A stretch of 64,000 nucleotides of DNA, from the NCBI RefSeq assembly GCF_025602895.1, contig NW_026516205.1, positions 248,001 to 312,000 of the forward strand. Reading direction: 5' to 3'. Shown here piece by piece: positions 224-42,572 of this stretch. How positions within the stretch are numbered: position 1 is the stretch's first letter; each line of letters opens with the position of its first letter. This DNA is from Polychytrium aggregatum (lineage: Eukaryota > Chytridiomycota > Chytridiomycetes > Polychytriales). Made by a program: the position numbers and the translations under genes. Under the pieces are notes generated by a model that was not told the DNA's origin, did no database searches, and saw only the letters and a list, made by a program, of their open reading frames with translations.

Positions 224-3201
224 ATGTCCGCCGACGAGAAAAAGTCCGATGTCCAGCTGCAGGACGAGCAGCGTCTGAACCAGCTGGGCTACAAGCAGGT
301 AGGTCTTGCACCGATCATCCCGTCCGCCCGGCTGGCGTCGAGGCTCGGCTCGGCTCGGGCGGCTTCAGCATCCACAGCCTTTCCGCCACCTAGCATTTGC
401 GAGGCATCTTGATGCTTTCCCCGGCTGCCATTTGGGTTGGTCTCTCATGCGTCCGTGTTTCGCTCGGATGGACCGCTGACTGCTTGTCCGTTCGTCCGTT
501 TGTCTCTCGGTACATAGGAGTTGCATCGCTCCCTGAGTTCCTTCGCCAACTTTGGCATTGCCTTCACAATTCTCTCGGTGCCGACGGCGCTGCTCCCGCT
601 GATCTACCTGGGCATGACTACTGGAGGTATCAGTGACTGTGTCCGCCAGACTGCCTTGACTTCCGACGCATGAGCAGGGAATGCTGATCGGCAGCATAAA
701 CATGACGATATGTCGATGGCTTCCACCCGGACCCCACAGACCGGCGTTTCGGCTGGCTGCCTCGGCAACCCGATCGCCGCTCAGAGTCACTGCCCGTCAG
801 ACAGATCCAGGCGAAGCCCCGCTGGCGCCTCCGGGCCCTTGCTCCGATCGGCCCAGCATTACAAGGCTGAATTCGCATCCTTTCTCCCTCGCTCCCTCCC
901 TCTCTCTCTCGCTCGCTCTCAGGTCCCGCCAGTTTGCTTATCAGCTGGCCCATTATTGCCGTCCTCTCCTTCCTGGTCGGCCTCAGCATCAGCGAGATTG
1001 TCTCGGCCTATCCCACCAGCGGCGGGCTTTACTATGTACGTTTGACCTGGCTTGAATGCATCGATCATGATATCGGGCCGTGAGCAAATCCAGGATTCTC
1101 AGAGTCCGCGATAACTGTCGGCCACCTTGCCCCATATCTCGGTGGACTCGACTCTCCATGATCGTTTGTTACACCGTCCCCCGTATCAACACAACTCGCC
1201 GCTTGATATCCCTCCTCGTCCAGTGGGCCGCCAATCTCGCCGGACCCAAGCGCGCTCCAATCTTCAGTTACTTTACCGGCTGGTTCAATTTCCTTGGTCT
1301 CTGGGGCATCACTTCCGGAACCGCCTTTGGCTTTGGGCAGATCTTTGCCACCTATCTCTACACCAATGGCAGCTGGAACACCACCGATATCCCGACCACG
1401 GACATGAGGTAGGTGCTGTCCAGATGCATCAATGGCCTTATTTCTGCCACGGAGCGATCCCCAGTCGGCCATGTTATTGCCTGGGTCTGTATTGCGGGTT
1501 CCACGGCGGACTTGCTAATCCACCCATGTTGCTTGCCGAGGTACTGACCCACACGCTTTGCAGATACAAGGGTGTGGTCGTCGCCTCATCGGCAGTTAGC
1601 CTCTTGATCGTTGCTCTCTTGGGCAAGGCCTCTTCCCGAACGCTGAACTACTTTGCCCAAGGTTGTCTCGGCATCAACATTGTCGGATTGCTGGTGATGG
1701 GCTTTGGCACTGCCTTCATGGGCAATGTCCCACGCACTCCACTTCCGACCCTCATCACCACCTGGGTCAACACCACGGGCTTCTCGGACGCTTGGGCGGC
1801 CTTCGTCGGGTGAGTGCCGCATGTGCATTGCCCGAGAGCACAGAGTGAGCCCAGATGCCACGTACGCTGCATCGCAAGCAACTCACGCAGTACATCCTAT
1901 CGGCGATGATGCAGCATCCTCCCGGCCGCGCTCACCTACAGCGGCTATGACTCGGCTGCCCACTTGGTAAGTTGCGAATGCATTCTTGAGGCCGGTTCCA
2001 TTCTACCTCGAGCATCGCTCGCACATCGCCAACTCATATGCCCTTTGCTTGATCCTCGTAGGCCGAAGAAACAGTCGGCGCTGCTCGTGCGGGACCCAAG
2101 GCCATTCTGATTTCCATGGCCGTGACCCTGCCTGTGGGCTTCCTGATGGGCTGGTCGCTGCTGGCTCCCGTGCCTATCGACCAATACTCCAGCTTTGCCA
2201 ACTCGCCCGTCTCGACCTCCACCGTCATTGATATCTTCTTCCTCGTTGGTGGCAATGCCGGTGGCTTGATCATGACCACAACCCTGTTTATCGTGTTTGT
2301 CACTGGTGTATATTCGATGGGTATGTAGGTCGTCGCTCTGCTCTGCTCTCCTCCGCGCCACATGAGTCCCAAGAGCCGGCGATATCTACTGGTTCTGTCC
2401 ACCAGCTCGGCTTGATACATCCTCGCCAACACCGCCGCCCCTTGTGGCTTATACTGACGACATGCATTGTCTCACTCTTCTCAGCAATCACTCACAGTCG
2501 CATGACTTATGCCTTTGCTCGCGACGGTGGCCTCCCGGGCTCAAAGTTCCTCTATGTCCTCGACGCTGCTTCCGAGACCCCCGTTCGCGCTCTGTGGATC
2601 ACCCTCTTTCTGGACTTTATCATCATCATTCCGTCCTTGTACTCATCCGCTCTCTACGCCGCCATCAACTCGGTCGGCACGATCGGAACCTACCTATGCT
2701 ATGCCATCCCCATCTTCTTGCGCATCGTCCGCGACAAGGAGTTCCCTCGAGGCCCATTCAATCTAGGTCGCTTTGGCCTGCCCGTGGCCGTGGTCGCTTT
2801 TATCTGGCTCCTGATTGCCTGTGTGGCCCTGTCTTTGCCCACGGTCAACGTGGTGTCCAGCAACTTCAGCGACTATTCGTCCTTCATTGCTGCATACCTG
2901 TCCAGCTTCAATTGGGCTCCGGTCATGGGTACGTATACGAGAGATGGATATTCGTTTCGCCTGAACTGCATCCTGTGTGGACTCTATGCTCCCGTACTCA
3001 CACCACATGCTGCCCCCCTATCGCTTTATCCACCCCTGCGCTTTTGCTCCAGTCGTTGGTATCTTTTTGATCGCTCTGATCATCTGGGTGGTCTCGGCGC
3101 GACACTGGTTCAAGGGACCCAAGCTGGATATCAAGACCATCGAGGCCTTTAGTCGGCGCAACCGTGGTAGCGCTAGCAGCGCTACCCTGACCTCGCTTTG
3201 A
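224..3201 (+). CDS. APC-family amino acid permease (GABA permease-like)
   Basis: Predicted 12-TM plasma- or vacuolar-membrane transporter of the amino acid/polyamine/choline superfamily, closest in style to fungal GABA-specific permeases such as Uga4. Nine exons: 224-298, 518-626, 923-1035, 1224-1408, 1564-1809, 1915-1966, 2062-2320, 2485-2928 and 3053-3201, giving 543 aa with phase kept at every junction. The first cytosolic segment and TM1 read ELHRSLSSFANFGIAF, typical of the family. Later segments keep the ISEIVSAYPTSGGLYY region of TM2-3, the GYDSAAHLAEET signature and an SRMTYAFARDGGLPGS loop. The start at 224 gives an acidic, hydrophilic N-terminus. Substrate is uncertain: GABA, choline or another amine are all possible. 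The transporter class is secure; the exact exon ends are inferred. Confidence 0.9.
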
Positions 3202-3753
3202 TCGCATCTGGGTGTTGGCTGGACAGTGCACGCCCGACAGCACATGTCGGACAAGCAGTTGGGGCGCACTCAGGCCAGCTGCAATACTTTTCGTTGCTCT
3301 TGTGTGTTTCCTCCGGTGCAATGGCCTCCTCCTTTCCTTCAGCACCGGTGGCGACTCATCCAGTCCCCGCTCAAAAATTCGATTTTTTCTTTGCTCTGCG
3401 AAGGCGTAATGGGTTTGTGTTTCAGGCTGTTCTTCACTGTTGCTGTTGTCTTGGCTTCTGTAACTGTCTTGAAGGAAGACGTCGGCCGCCATCGAAGCTT
3501 GGAGCTGCTCAGATTTGTTCGACGAGATATTGGCGATTCGTGATGGCTTGGCCGACTCTGCTACTCTTGTTGATGTCTTTGTTGCCATTGTCGCCATTTT
3601 CTTACTTTCCTTCTCTCCATGATGTAAACTTTGATGCTTGTTGAGTTGGGATGTATTGTGATTGACAATAACAGGCGAAACAAAGCCCATCCCATCCCCC
3701 TTCGTGGAAGCTGATGCGTTCGTGATTATGGCTGCGACATGGCGCTTTCCTGG
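3202..3753. other. convergent intergenic region
   Basis: Lies between the stop codons of the permease (+) and the ZNRD2-like gene (-), so it should hold both 3' UTRs and terminators. I see no gene, repeat or clear AATAAA signal. Confidence 0.5.
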
Positions 3754-37006: not shown

Positions 37007-38700
37007 ATGTCCGTCGACGGAGCCATCCTCAGCTCAGACAGCACCCCAAACACCGTTCCTGGCGAAAAGTTTTATTTCAGCCAAGGTCGGCGCCGTTTGC
37101 CGCTCGCCTCGGCTCCGGGCATTGCTCTGACTGCGGGCATACATACATCCGTCCACATGCGTCTGATCGTGATTCCTGCCGGGTCTTTCCCTCTCATCAG
37201 ACAAAGTGAGCTTCAGCTACCTCTCCGGCAAGTGAGTGCCCTTTAATTTCCCTTCAAAGCCATGCGTGGCATCGAACCCACAGCTGCGGGGCAGCCAATG
37301 TCCGTCGCTACTATCCTGTGGCCGAGCCTCAACTCCAGAATGGGCTGGATCAATGGAGCCAATGCCACACCGCTGCCTTTCCTCCAATATCTGGTCCGCT
37401 CACCGTTATGTCGTGCTCGCAGCGGATACCCAGGAAGCGGCGACTGCTTCATGTCGCCAAGCGGAAAGGTCTACGTCTGTGAGTATTCACGAGCCACCAG
37501 ACTGGGTGGGCGGGGATACGCATCTGCCCATCCGTCTACGGGTCCATTCGACCGTCTGCACGACAATGCTAATGACACTTGCGGGACTCGTCAACGAAAT
37601 GCGGCAAACAAAACTGCCGTTTCACTTTATCTGCGCAGGGCAGGGCAGGGCAGGGCAGGACAGGGCAGGGCAGGGCAGGGCAGGGCAGCGCAGGGCGGGA
37701 CTTGCTGTCCTGACTGAAATTGCGGCTAACATTTTTATCCGGCGCTATCGCCCCTCCCCGCCACCACCACATGGTCGTCGATATTGTTGTTATTTTCGCC
37801 ATGTCATCTACCGATGACTCTCGGCATCCTCAGCCAACGTGCGGGTTGTGTATGTGGCCAACCCTTCCCAGCCAAATTTCCATTCATTTTCGGCCCCACT
37901 GCACAACATCAGGTACGGGTTCTGCCGTCAGTCTCTCGTCGCACCACCGGAAAGATCAGCTTCTCCTGAAGCCTGGCCCATGTGCGCTGCCCCTCATCGG
38001 CGACGGCTTGCTGCATGAGGCCCCCGTCTCAATATCGTGGCTACTTGTCACCTCTATCGTCACCAGAAATGGCAAGCTTCAACAGCCCTGGCTTGGTGCA
38101 AACTTCTACGAAGGTAGCGATAGATATCGCACATGGACTGGTGCACAATCGAACTGCTCTTCCCTGGATTCCATGGGGCGGACTACAGTCTCGCCCCGAC
38201 GACCTACGTATCTGCTAACTCTCCATCATATTCATCTCTCTCCCACCCATTGCAACGGTGTGTCTCGGCGATCAGCACATGCCTATCCTGTCCCCTTGAG
38301 CAACCTGAGAAAGCCAGGCGTCGTCAAATTCACCTTTCAGAACGGTGGTGCCTTTGAGTTCTCGACCATATTCAAGGAGCTGAGCGCCCGAATCCCAGGT
38401 ATGACTCGGAGCAACGATCGCTGTCTTGACGAGATCTACCGTTCTGTTGATCGCTCTGGACTTTTTGCAGCGACAGACAAGATTTGGATTTGCTGCATTA
38501 GACGAGATGCCATAGATACTTTGCGACATTGCACTTGCCTCAGCATCGTGTCGCAGCATGTTCAGATGACTAACGCTATGATTTGACCTCCCGCCACCTC
38601 GAATCGCCGGCTTGATGCAGAGGGCGTCAATCCACTCGAGGAGTCGCTTCCGGAGTACCAAGCGCCCCCGCCCCCGCCTGCTTACAGCGCATCCGATTAA
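37007..38700 (+). CDS. WBP2-like GRAM-domain protein with PPxY tail
   Basis: Seven exons: 37007-37085, 37201-37231, 37423-37478, 37834-37912, 38067-38113, 38276-38398 and 38621-38700, giving 164 aa. The product matches the WW-domain-binding protein 2 family: EKFYFSQDKVSFSYLSG, then FMSPSGKVYVSNVRVVYVAN (GRAM core, like GTVYLT.YRVIFL), PSQPNFHSFSAPLHNIR, PWLGANFYE and VVKFTFQNGGAFEFSTIF. The acidic, Pro-rich end LPEYQAPPPPPAYSASD has a PPxY-type motif (PPAY) that could bind WW domains of Nedd4/Rsp5-type ligases. The third exon start is the least certain: an upstream acceptor would add about 31 residues. Intron 3 has a GGGCA repeat. Confidence 0.82.
37634..37698. repeat. (CAGGG)n pentamer repeat in WBP2-like intron 3
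   Basis: About a dozen copies of CAGGG with one or two substitutions, inside the third intron of the WBP2-like gene. Confidence 0.93.
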
Positions 38701-38723
38701 AAACGGGACACTCGTGTTTTTGA

Positions 38724-38894
38724 CCATTCATCGAATATATTGTTACCCAATGTTATCGCGCGCTGGCCATGACCATTCGCCAGACGGTGTGGAATCGCGA
38801 CGTCAATGCGGCGCGCAACATGATCACAGTGTGCAGGTCGATTGTGGAGACCGGAGGGCGACCGGTGGCCTTCACTCGGAGGCTGCCAAAGTGA
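38724..38894 (+). pseudogene. Fanzor/TnpB C-terminal fragment
   Basis: A 56-codon open segment just after the WBP2-like stop. It reads IRQTVWNRDVNAARNMITVC and then SIVETGGRPVAFTRRLPK before a stop. WNRDVNAARN is the C-terminal RuvC-III block shared by TnpB and eukaryotic Fanzor nucleases, and the ETGGRPVAF tail also fits Fanzor proteins. The zinc-ribbon cysteines normally just upstream are mostly missing (only one Cys is seen) and there is no start or N-terminal domain, so this is a broken remnant. A TGA directly precedes the segment in frame. I found no terminal repeats around it. Confidence 0.62.
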
Positions 38895-40918
38895 TTTGAT
38901 TGTATTACTTATGGCTTTGCTTGACGCAAGCACATCACATACTACATGTTCATGGAAGCAGCTGTGTTGTCACGTTTGTTTCTGAATAAAGTGTACTCAG
39001 AGACTCCTAACAGCGAGGAAGAAAGCTCGGCAGTGCCCTCGACGGCTCCTTCAACAGCACCGGAGAAGGGAGGCTCCAGCTCATGATCAAGCGTCTGCTG
39101 GACATGGCTCGGTGAATGCTCGTTGCTGTGACGCTGGTTGAAGGTCTCGGGGCATTTCCCACAATTTTGAGTCGCCTGTTTGTATCTATGTTGTCGTCCG
39201 TCCAGCGACCGCAACCGTACGGCAGGGGGCAAAGTCTTGGCTTGTCGAATTGTACCTGGTCTTCAGCTGCAATTGTACCATGAAGAACACGCTTCCGAGT
39301 ATTTGTGGACGATGTCCGCAGAATATGAGCAAAGGCAAGAGGACGGCCCTATGCCGGCCGCAGATGGGGATGCAGACCCGCAAGACAGCAATGCGGGAAT
39401 GGATGGCGACGTGAACGGCACGCATTCGGGAGCCTGGGGGGAAGGGAGGCAAAGAACGGCCAATGCTCCCCAAAGCAACAAAGCAAGACAGCCGACTTTC
39501 GTTTTGTGACGCCCATGCGCCTGGTCGAGATGAGATCTGCGTGGGCGAGGCGTCGGACCAGGCCCGACCCCACATGCCCTCGCATCCCGCACCGGATCCC
39601 CACACGGTCCCGATTGTGTAGCCCAATATCGGCGAGTGACGAACGCATCTTGGATAGATATTGAGGGGCGCACAAGCAGCGGTAATCGGGAACATGGTCA
39701 AGGCAAGCGATGGAATGGAACAGTCTGCCGCCGGAGGATCTTGGACACGGCCGCAGGATGGGCCGGACGGGGCCTCGAGCGGCATTCGAATGGCCGGGAG
39801 GCAAGTGGTGTGGGTGGCTGGAAGCAGCGGGTCGGAGGGGGCTGGCGATGGTCCATGAATGAATCGGAAGCTCGCCCAGGACAACGCAGCAATCACGCCC
39901 CATGGAAAGTCCCGAGCCAGCAGGATCCGGCTGCCGAAGGAACGCACTCGTTGGGAAAGAAACAATCGACCGAGCCGCAGAGGTGATTCGCCGGAAGCCC
40001 GGCAGGCGGCGGCCCCGAGTCAGGCAGCAAACGCAGACCGGGGGGTGGCTGCTGATCATCTGCCTGCTCACGATGCAAAGAGCCGTTGGCTGTGCGGCTG
40101 CGCTGGATCTGGAAGGGCATGGTGGTGGGGATGGAAGGAGAGCAACAGGGCAACAGACGGGAAAGAGTCGCTGGGTGCTGGCGAAGGGGAAAGGCAATGA
40201 ACGACATAGGGTGGGAAAGTGGACAGGGAACCGTCAAGGACGGCATCTTTAGCGAAAGGGATGGCAGCACGGCCTGGGTGCTCCCAGACATGCAAATGTA
40301 TGTGTTGATAGCCGCCGGCACCCATCCCAGCACAGGCATGAGAGAGTGGTCACGCATGGATCGAGGCGACCAGCATGATCGACTCCCCCCCCCTCGGAGG
40401 CGTTGCGGCCGAGCCACAGGATTCTACAAGAAGAACATCCCTGCCCTGGCCAGGCGAGATGCAGGCGTGCGGGTGGGACCTTTTCGGCGACGCGCCGGGT
40501 CCTGGCCGCTGGGCCATTCGAGAAGGCAGTGCCAGAGCAGCAAGACTGTCATGGGGCTGGTGGCGCGCGGCGCGGCCAGGAACGAAAATGGGAAAGGTGC
40601 GACGGCGGCAGCTGACAGGGTCATCTGATGGAGGGGGACAAGTCGATGCACCAGCCCGAGCCGAACGGGCGCTGTGGTTCGATAGGGGCACTTCGATGGG
40701 GGTTGGTGTGGAGGAGAATGCTGCAAGAAGGCTGCATCGAAGGTGCCGGGGGGGGGGCTGGGCAATGCCGGGCCAAAGTCGAGCATAAAAAGCGCCGCCC
40801 GAGCGCCCTCCGTCTCGGCCACCACCGACCCTGCGCTCAACCCGCTCCAGCGTCCCTCAGTCCTCATCAAAGTTCTCCTCCTTCAATCCCTCCTCCTCCA
40901 CCCGCAACCACCCCAGCC
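38895..40918. other. 2-kb intergenic region
   Basis: No gene supported, although long Pro/Ser/Arg-rich frames run on both strands. It could hide decayed transposon sequence related to the fragment at 38724, but I see no further motif. The right end is the protease promoter. Confidence 0.4.
40783..40790 (+). promoter_or_regulatory. TATA-like element of the papain-like protease
   Basis: CATAAAAA-type element (gcataaaaag) about 130 bp before the ATG, followed by a C/T-rich leader, resembling the second GH18 promoter. Confidence 0.5.
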
Positions 40919-42572
40919 ATGCTCGTCAACGCTGCCGCCGCCGTCGTTCTCTTCCTTGGCATTGCTGCCTCGGCCGATGCCGCCTCTGTCAAGAAAGGTA
41001 CTGCCGCCCGATCTGTTTCCCACACCCCTGGCTGGTGTGTTTGATGAGTGTTCTGATTGCTGTGGGTGTTCTGATTGCTTGGGTGTTCTGTTCCCACACT
41101 CTCCACACTCACTGCCGCGCAACCCATCCAACATACTCACCACCCACTGCCACCCATCCCACAGGCAAGTGGAGCAAGTACGTCAAGAGCCTCGACAAGG
41201 TCATTGGTTCCACCCAGAACACTGCCATCATGGCCTCCGAGTCGAGCCAGCTCCACTCCCAGTACCTTGCTCGCCAGAACGACTCGCAGTTCCAGGGTCT
41301 CGTCCAGCAAGTCCGCAGCCACCTCCACAACGGCATTGATGCCAGCCTCCTCTCGGGTTCCATCGTCTCTGACAAGTCGGTCGAGTCGATCCGCCAGAAC
41401 GTCTTTGTAAGTACTCGGCGCGACAGAATGCTTGTGCATTGGTGCATTGGTGCATTGGTGCATTGGTGCATTGGTGCATTGGTGCATTGGTGCATTGGTG
41501 CATTGGTGCATTGGTGCATTGGTGCATTGGTACATTGGTGCATGCCATGCTCTTGCCATCCACCTCATTCACCCATTCGCTCACTCAATCACTCTCCATC
41601 AACTGCCACCAGGGAAACGGTGCCTCTGCTGAAGACACCCAGACCCAGTCCGAGGCCGTCCTCGCTGCCGTTCTGCCCACTTCCTGGGACTCTCGCAGCT
41701 CGGGATGGGTCTCGCCCATCAAGGACCAGGGTCAGTGCGGCAGCTGTGTCGCCTTCTCTTCGGCCGCCGCCGTCGAGAGTACCTTCTTGAGCCAGGGAAC
41801 CTCCATCATCGTCTCCGAGGCCGACATCTTCTTCTGCCTTGCCGCTGGCCAGGCTCAGTGCAGCACTGGCTGGTACCCAAGCTCGGCCGCCAGCGCCATC
41901 TCCAGCCGCGGTGTTGTCACTGAGCAGTGCTTCCCTTACACTGCCGGCACCGGCCAGGACCAGAGCTGCACCGACAGCAGCTGCTCTCGCACTGGTGGCA
42001 TCTCTGAGAACTCCTTCAGCAGCGTCGACCAGTTCAAGCAGCACATCATGGCCTATGGCGCTGTCTTCACCGCCTTCACTGTCTACAGCGACTTTGAGAA
42101 CTGCTGCAGCAACAACCAAATCTACATGCAGCAGTCCAACCAGCAGCTCGGCGGTCACGCCGTCGCCATTGTTGGCTGGGACGACACCAACCAAGCTTGG
42201 CTCTGCAAGAACTCTTGGGGCCCCTCTTGGGGAACCAGCGGTTTCTTCTGGATCGGATATGGCCAGTCCGGCATTGGCGCCACCAGCCAGACCTTTGGTT
42301 TCACTGTTGCTGGCAACCAGCCCACCACCACCACCAAGCCTGTCAAGACCACCACCACCACCAAGCCCGTCAAGACCACCAGTGGTCCCACTCCCTCCGT
42401 CAACCCTCCTCCTCCTCCTCCTTCGGGCAGCTGCACCGGTGCCGCTCCCAACAGCTATGTCTGCCAGAGCTCCACCAGCTACTTGTGGTGCGTTGGCGGC
42501 AACTCCTATGCCTACAACTGCCCTGCTGGCACCACCTGTGTCTCGGGCGTTAACTACCCCTGCTCCTGGTAA
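40919..42572 (+). CDS. Secreted papain-like (C1A) cysteine protease with Cys-rich C-terminal module
   Basis: Exons 40919-40997, 41165-41406 and 41613-42572 encode 426 aa. A signal peptide (MLVNAAAAVVLFLGIAASADA) and a propeptide precede the mature domain starting near LPTSWDSRSSGWVSPI. The catalytic set is complete: oxyanion Gln and Cys in KDQGQCGSCVAFS, His in LGGHAVAIVGWDD and Asn in WLCKNSWGPSWG. A Thr/Lys and Pro linker (QPTTTTKPVKTT) leads to a six-Cys tail SCTGAAPNSYVCQSSTSYLW...NCPAGTTCVSG. The tail resembles that of the second GH18 enzyme and may bind chitin or another wall polymer. Papain-type proteases are uncommon in Dikarya but known in early-diverging fungi. Intron 2 contains an 8-bp repeat. 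Confidence 0.93.
41407..41431 (+). other. 5' part of protease intron 2 before the repeat
   Basis: GTAAGT donor at 41407 is followed at once by the 8-bp array, so the repeat fills over half of this intron without touching the donor or acceptor. Confidence 0.7.
41432..41541. repeat. 8-bp tandem repeat in protease intron 2
   Basis: About 13 copies of TGCATTGG, nearly perfect, within the 206-bp second intron. Both strands read through it as CIGALVHW or HQCTNAPM runs, which are not proteins. Confidence 0.95.

Follow-up and report, generated by a model that had tools for sequence, protein, structure and literature searches.

A Fanzor nuclease scrap in Polychytrium aggregatum is the right half of an internally deleted mini-transposon inserted in a host coding sequence

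MITEs of the Tc1/mariner type are short, uniform, non-autonomous elements that carry a TA duplication and arise by internal deletion, and their origin from Tc1/mariner elements in this way has been widely reported. Among Fanzor-related elements, 134 ghost loci have been described from Spizellomyces, and assays derived from that fungus showed ghost omega-RNAs to be active together with Fanzor (Saito et al. 2023, PMC10432273). Mariner elements bearing Fanzor1 have also been described (Bao and Jurka 2013, PMC3627910), a non-autonomous transposon with Fanzor1 only is known (PMC10711439), and the TnpB-driven retention and drive of bacterial insertion sequences (IS200/605) has been tested by experiment (PMC11870625).

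The window, by which we mean the whole 64,000-nucleotide stretch of P. aggregatum DNA that was analysed, contains at 38724-38894 a 56-aa stop-to-stop frame with the C-terminal end WNRDVNAARNMITVCRSIVETGGRPVAFTRRLPK. A preliminary description had seen in it the RuvC-III end of a Fanzor protein whose remainder was missing. Both points stand: the C-terminal part of the peptide matches longer frames in the same genome, one of which, 809 aa long, has a Pfam TNB match above the cut-off (E 6.7e-9), and in place of a full RuvC/TNB nuclease the last ~37 codons are left. The profile search that had been proposed for the peptide succeeded by way of this relative, the peptide alone giving a weak TNB match of 13 residues below the cut-off (E 0.081). 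The frame's first ~17 residues come from the left end of a transposon, not from Fanzor. From the alignment of copies with their flanks, and the match to a long copy (L030), the nuclease scrap is the right half of an internally deleted mini-transposon (a MITE or “ghost” Fanzor element), which forms a structurally complete, non-autonomous element of 309 bp at 38685-38993 on the forward strand, as are all parts of the element and host gene given below. The repeat is sharply bounded and measures ~313 bp when the TA on each side is counted (38683-38684 on the left, preceded by a T at 38682 and so reading TTA; 38994-38995 on the right).

The left part (38685-38781) comprises a terminal repeat, a leader and the first codons (MTIR) of a Tc1/mariner-type transposase, and matches positions 1-104 of L030 at 90%. 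The right part holds the last ~37 codons and the stop codon of a Fanzor1 frame (38782-38894, recognized from the same-genome matches, the L030 frame and an alignment with chain 8gkh), followed by a 3' end with the right terminal repeat (38895-38995), a candidate omega-RNA scaffold by analogy with its position in Spizellomyces. Relative to L030, the element consists of positions 1-104 and 3396-3611, that is, the left ~97 bp of the parent joined to the last ~37 Fanzor1 codons and the parental 3' end, with GCC present on both parental sides; this overlap lies at the deletion junction (38779-38781), the right match beginning at 38779 and the left match finishing at 38785. Across the junction, the transposase start is in frame with the Fanzor end, giving a predicted 41-aa chimeric frame (MTIRQ-TVWNRD...RRLPK, 38769-38894). 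TA duplications and imperfect terminal inverted repeats are present in the aligned copies of both the element and its parent; in most copies an imperfect inverted repeat around AAAACGGGACA is common to both ends, relative to which the right repeat of the window copy has several changes. The element is a MITE in being short, uniform, non-autonomous, multi-copy and furnished with the ends of its parent, most fetched copies measuring 311-317 bp with the TAs, and a ghost Fanzor element in having Fanzor-element ends without a Fanzor ORF and a conserved base beside the left TA.

We searched the organism's own genome (64.7 Mb, 418 contigs) with the peptide and scored the best 150 of 1194 candidates. 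Matches among these 150, the window's own copy included, reach E 1.9e-32, which rules out a chance match or an unrelated family. At least 47 of the matches listed, again counting the window, cover nearly the whole peptide and have the mini layout in common, and 45 of the 47 lie in a 56-aa open frame. Among the same best 150, 4 more are partial matches to the start of the peptide, and a further 99 cover the C-terminal portion of the peptide within longer or otherwise different frames, of which 55 are at least 750 aa long. The intact relatives that the preliminary description had expected such a whole-genome search to bring out are thus present, in the form of these 55 intact-looking frames. A pattern search with at most 3 mismatches found the full-type side of the right breakpoint at 261 places (133 forward, 128 reverse), a figure that is not a count of full-length elements, since it includes paired-contig copies and at least one internally deleted copy.

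The parent is a Tc1/mariner-type element of ~3.6-3.7 kb with a transposase gene on its 5' side and a Fanzor1 gene of ~809 aa on its 3' side, L030 being a complete copy of 3611 bp counting the TAs. The 5' frame of L030, which begins ATGACCATTCGCC and is shortened in this copy, gives sub-threshold matches to a helix-turn-helix and to the first part of a DDE domain; in 325-aa frames of other long copies (e.g., C44:67295 and C223:1228335) DDE_3 is above the cut-off. Its 3' frame is the 809-aa frame with the TNB match, whose C-terminal 49 residues align to chain 8gkh, a Fanzor of Spizellomyces (E 0.047), and the published Fanzor motif D-X(125,275)-[TS][TS]XX-C4-X(5,50)-RD is found in L030 at D558. 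The parent therefore combines a Fanzor1 nuclease, by motif and TNB, with a Tc1/mariner DDE transposase. Other mini forms were also seen. In locus L035, a long Fanzor copy ends at 3203, and a second mini-element type (3195-3503, minus strand) adjoins its right end in the opposite orientation; this type matches at 84% at its left end and has a core that looks derived from the transposase gene. Shorter minis (L080/L081, 259 bp; L078/L079, 305/299 bp) have lost part of the Fanzor coding end and kept the far right end.

Ghost Spu-1 of Spizellomyces punctatus (Saito et al. 2023, PMC10432273) resembles the present element in having two Fanzor-element ends without a Fanzor ORF in many copies, a right end similar to the Fanzor locus, and conserved bases flanking the left repeat on its outer side (CA for Spu-1, T for the present element). 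It differs in being ~550 bp long with seven repeat differences from Fanzor loci, against 309 bp here, and the passages of that paper on Spu-1 report no transposase within its repeats, whereas the parent here has one. Unlike Spu-1, the element in the window is a plain internal deletion of a resident parent, with Fanzor C-terminal codons fused to the transposase start. The parent belongs with the Fanzor1-bearing Mariner elements, sharing with them a transposase together with Fanzor1, terminal inverted repeats and TA duplications; in contrast to them, the window copy encodes neither protein, and mini-derivatives are not named in the passages on these elements (PMC3627910). With Tc1/mariner MITEs our element has in common its shortness, uniformity, non-autonomy, TA duplication and internal deletion, and it departs from them in keeping a nuclease gene end and a candidate guide-RNA region and in showing a one-sided T. 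TnpB-driven retention is similar in its proposed logic, in which the insertion flank would be the guide, element-free copies would be cut and the element would be kept; it concerns bacterial IS200/605 (PMC11870625), whereas the case made here is eukaryotic, of DDE type and inferred from sequence.

The element sits within a host coding sequence, the frame of which resumes beyond it once the flanks are joined. Reading frame and GT..AG borders place an intron at 38399-38620; the exon that follows, the last as now read (38621-38700, with splice sites deduced likewise), runs to PPPPPAYSASD and a stop, with the end EGVNPLEESLPEYQAPPPPPAYSASD; the stop codon, at 38698-38700, falls inside the element. 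Joining the flanks restores the host end PPPPPAYSETPNSEEESSAVPSTAPSTAPEKGGSSS, the displaced original C-terminus being YSETPNSEEESSAVPSTAPSTAPEKGGSSS followed by a stop (38994-39086). As a result, 28 host residues are cut off, with ASD and a stop in their place, and the PPAY motif is retained because the TA and the first base of the element, C, rebuild the tyrosine codon. The preliminary description had placed the fragment after the stop codon of a WBP2-like gene and suggested that it may serve as the 3' UTR. Its role as a 3' end is correct, the element supplying both the stop and an AATAAA (38985-38990) that is a possible polyadenylation signal of the host gene; its placement is not, the insertion lying in the coding sequence. 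The gene label finds faint support, the host protein being weakly GRAM/WBP2-like (GRAM E 0.11, sub-threshold, from hand-joined exons). Both flanks and the protein piece match this locus only; therefore, no second copy or empty allele of the window site is seen in this assembly. Tandem repeats were also seen in the window: a GCAGG array of 12.4 copies in the host gene region (37635-37696), and a perfect-looking 8-bp minisatellite, GTGCATTG, of 13.8 copies (41434-41543) in an apparent intron of what we take, from its look, to be a papain-like protease gene.

The insertion sites bear a one-sided signature. With repeated flanks removed, 66 left and 62 right ends were scored, from which those lacking a TA at the expected position (7 left, 6 right) were set aside. 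The base immediately before the left TA is T in 54 of 59 left ends (31/34 in minis and 23/25 in the others, a “full” class that includes one left end of a different mini-element, L035, minus strand). The mirror base, an A after the right TA, occurs in 9 of 56 right ends, among which the “full” class includes one of a related element (L055, minus strand); there is no mirror bias against an assumed 21.5% (p 0.42). The empty counterpart of mini-copy L062 in contig C143 reads CTT-TTA-GGGAAAC, which at this one site identifies TA as the duplicated sequence and assigns the T to the target, ruling it out as the element's own terminal base. The right end of L062 is itself cut back by ~70 bp, with the TA still adjoining. 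A symmetric transposase preference would not produce a one-sided T, and an asymmetric target bias could in principle stem from unequal transposon ends. In Spizellomyces, the Fanzor motif is CATA, and CA lies just outside the left repeat of Fanzor and ghost elements (PMC10432273); by analogy, we predict TTA as the Fanzor target motif here. The candidate guide is the flank beside the right end (38996-39011), which would be host coding sequence. With up to 1 mismatch allowed, TTA joined to the right flank of the window copy has no match in the genome other than its own junction, which reads GTA. An omega-RNA at the right end is plausible, a consensus-type copy folding better than shuffles (z -3.35 for 148 nt, z -1.98 for 100 nt). 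For the window copy itself, the 100-nt end folds no better than shuffles (z -0.45), a divergent copy has z -0.84, and the candidate right-end omega-RNA had no match in Rfam.

One insertion site can hold different contents in the assembly. The 51 mini-copy loci that we fetched represent 39 distinct sites, 12 of which have a mini on both of two contigs and one of which is the window's own site, seen once. Among 25 further sites queried with joined flanks, 16 had no second copy, 5 had one with the flanks 3.6-3.7 kb apart and full-type fetched ends, 2 held other internal deletions (about 285 and 1115 bp), 1 was empty, and 1 was matched by the left flank only, beside a full-type left end. With a sixth mini/full pair (L077 versus L045/L104), structural differences are found at 10 of the 22 mini-sites that occur on two contigs: 6 pair a mini with a full element, 2 pair it with another deletion, 1 is the one-flank match to a full-type end and 1 is mini/empty, the second copies being alleles or recent duplicates. 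Mixed sites lie on the contig pairs C172/C190, C156/C223, C364/C301, C404/C21, C368/C312 and C246/C398. Second copies matched on both flanks turned up for 6 of the 16 full-length sites that we queried, every one of them full-sized; 1 further site had a one-flank match and 9 had none; no empty copy of a full-length site appeared among the best 40 of 585 candidates. L119 (C35:834690-835115) is a 285-bp mini at the site of the 313-bp form of L014, with the same left breakpoint (CATTCGCC), a different core and outer variants in common.

In the 12 mini/mini pairs, the flanks show 15 differences in 13668 bases and the elements 9 in 3699, an excess that is not significant (p 0.076); L026/L066 alone shows a patch, with 7 differences in the element and 1 in 1300 flank bases. 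Unusual end variants are common to mini and full at L073 (both ends), L022 (left), and L012 and L076 (outer right), and each of these pairs therefore goes back to one insertion; L077 has no special end-sharing with its full counterpart, and L056 says nothing either way. Summed over the six pairs, 22 differences fall in the junction-side part of the right end and 6 in the outer part, opposite to L022 taken singly (2 junction-side, 4 outer), and the alignments show one flank substitution each at L056 (left side) and L022 (right flank). Five full/full pairs show much greater divergence in the element than in the flanks: L031/L047 has 148 differences in ~3.2 kb of element versus 7 in 2370 right-flank bases, and the four others have 9, 8, 9 and 23 per ~800 bp of element versus 0, 1, 0 and 0 per ~300 bp of flank, unrelated copies showing 12-31 per ~800 bp. 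These full/full substitutions lie mostly away from the outermost ~90 bp. We rejected the idea that full copies at mixed sites, by their mini-type right ends, had been filled in from full templates, because the supposed mini base is the commoner one in full-type right ends (89 exact matches with T, the supposed mini-type base, and 24 with C in a pattern search); the 20 full copies behind the idea had been picked by similarity to the window peptide and are a biased set. A single recent birth of the mini form was rejected as well, since the right ends of minis are more diverse among themselves (mean 10.4 differences) than those of the full copies in that biased set (4.6). The same junction-side variants occur in mini and full right ends, and mini diversity would fit independent formation and later conversion equally.

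As the best explanation of these findings, to which we give an even chance of being right, we propose a mini element moved in trans, whose site is subject to omega-RNA-guided Fanzor cutting and gap-repair exchange. The transposase of the parent would move the mini-transposon; its right end would be transcribed into an omega-RNA with the flank as guide; the parental Fanzor would use this RNA against element-free copies of the site (TTA followed by the guide); and template-directed gap repair would exchange full, mini and other-deletion contents there. We infer guide-RNA production and the part of Fanzor in the exchange from sequence features. This explanation is supported by the sharp ~313-bp repeat, the parental frames, the T bias, the TTA of the empty counterpart, the mini/full and mini/other-deletion sites, the end variants common to mini and full, the uniqueness of TTA plus guide and the activity of ghost omega-RNAs in the Spizellomyces work, and it is weakened by the window 3' end folding no better than shuffles, the unshared ends of L077, the reversed pattern of L022 and there being one empty counterpart. 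No report of same-site exchange appeared among the open-licence papers on Fanzor that were listed.

An ordinary MITE is an alternative explanation. It would have formed by an abortive-gap-repair deletion and been moved in trans, with no omega-RNA or nuclease at work, the Fanzor coding end being retained merely as the neighbour of the right terminal repeat and the exchange being ectopic gene conversion after transposase excision. The GCC overlap at the junction and the weak fold of the window copy agree with such an origin, which we hold to be quite possible, if somewhat short of an even chance; it leaves unexplained the one-sided T (54/59 versus 9/56) and the rarity of empty counterparts (1 of the 10 structural differences). 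Ectopic conversion following excision by the transposase accounts for the exchange with no part for Fanzor. Gap repair without Fanzor is a serious rival that could well turn out to be correct. Assembly artefacts, whether collapsed or mis-joined repeats or polishing with mis-mapped short reads, are an improbable source of the same-site differences. Second copies do lie on separate and sometimes short contigs (39-44 kb: C172, C156 and C143), and mis-polishing would likewise put full/full substitutions away from the outermost ~90 bp; but the other contigs involved measure 140 kb to 1.4 Mb, and polishing errors, which could inflate substitutions, do not yield 3.3-kb differences with near-identical flanks, common end variants or two other deletions at the same sites. 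The preliminary description's decayed Fanzor fragment, 3' of the host stop codon and now a 3' UTR, has next to no chance of being right: the element does supply 3' sequence with AATAAA, but its boundaries, with both transposon ends and TA duplications, its layout common to sister copies and the resumed host frame rule out a remnant after the stop.

Under Fanzor cutting followed by gap-repair exchange, a further step can be put forward tentatively, and we think it rather unlikely: Fanzor would make insertion sites permanent, elements supplying guides to their own sites, empty alleles being cut and refilled from whatever copy is at hand, minis being short refills and the window copy aiming Fanzor at the intact allele of the truncated host gene. 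If this were true, sites would persist while their contents churn, minis would keep the guide RNA as they arise and spread, and the right end in the window would escape cutting, TTA having become GTA. This family is a natural test of what Fanzor does for the transposon that carries it, with at least 47 mini-copies beside 261 full-type 3' ends in a single genome and a sharp one-sided signature that predicts TTA. The window adds a concrete case in which a Fanzor-derived element rewrites a host C-terminus, with host coding sequence as its predicted guide, and the two-form sites show how ghost elements may arise.
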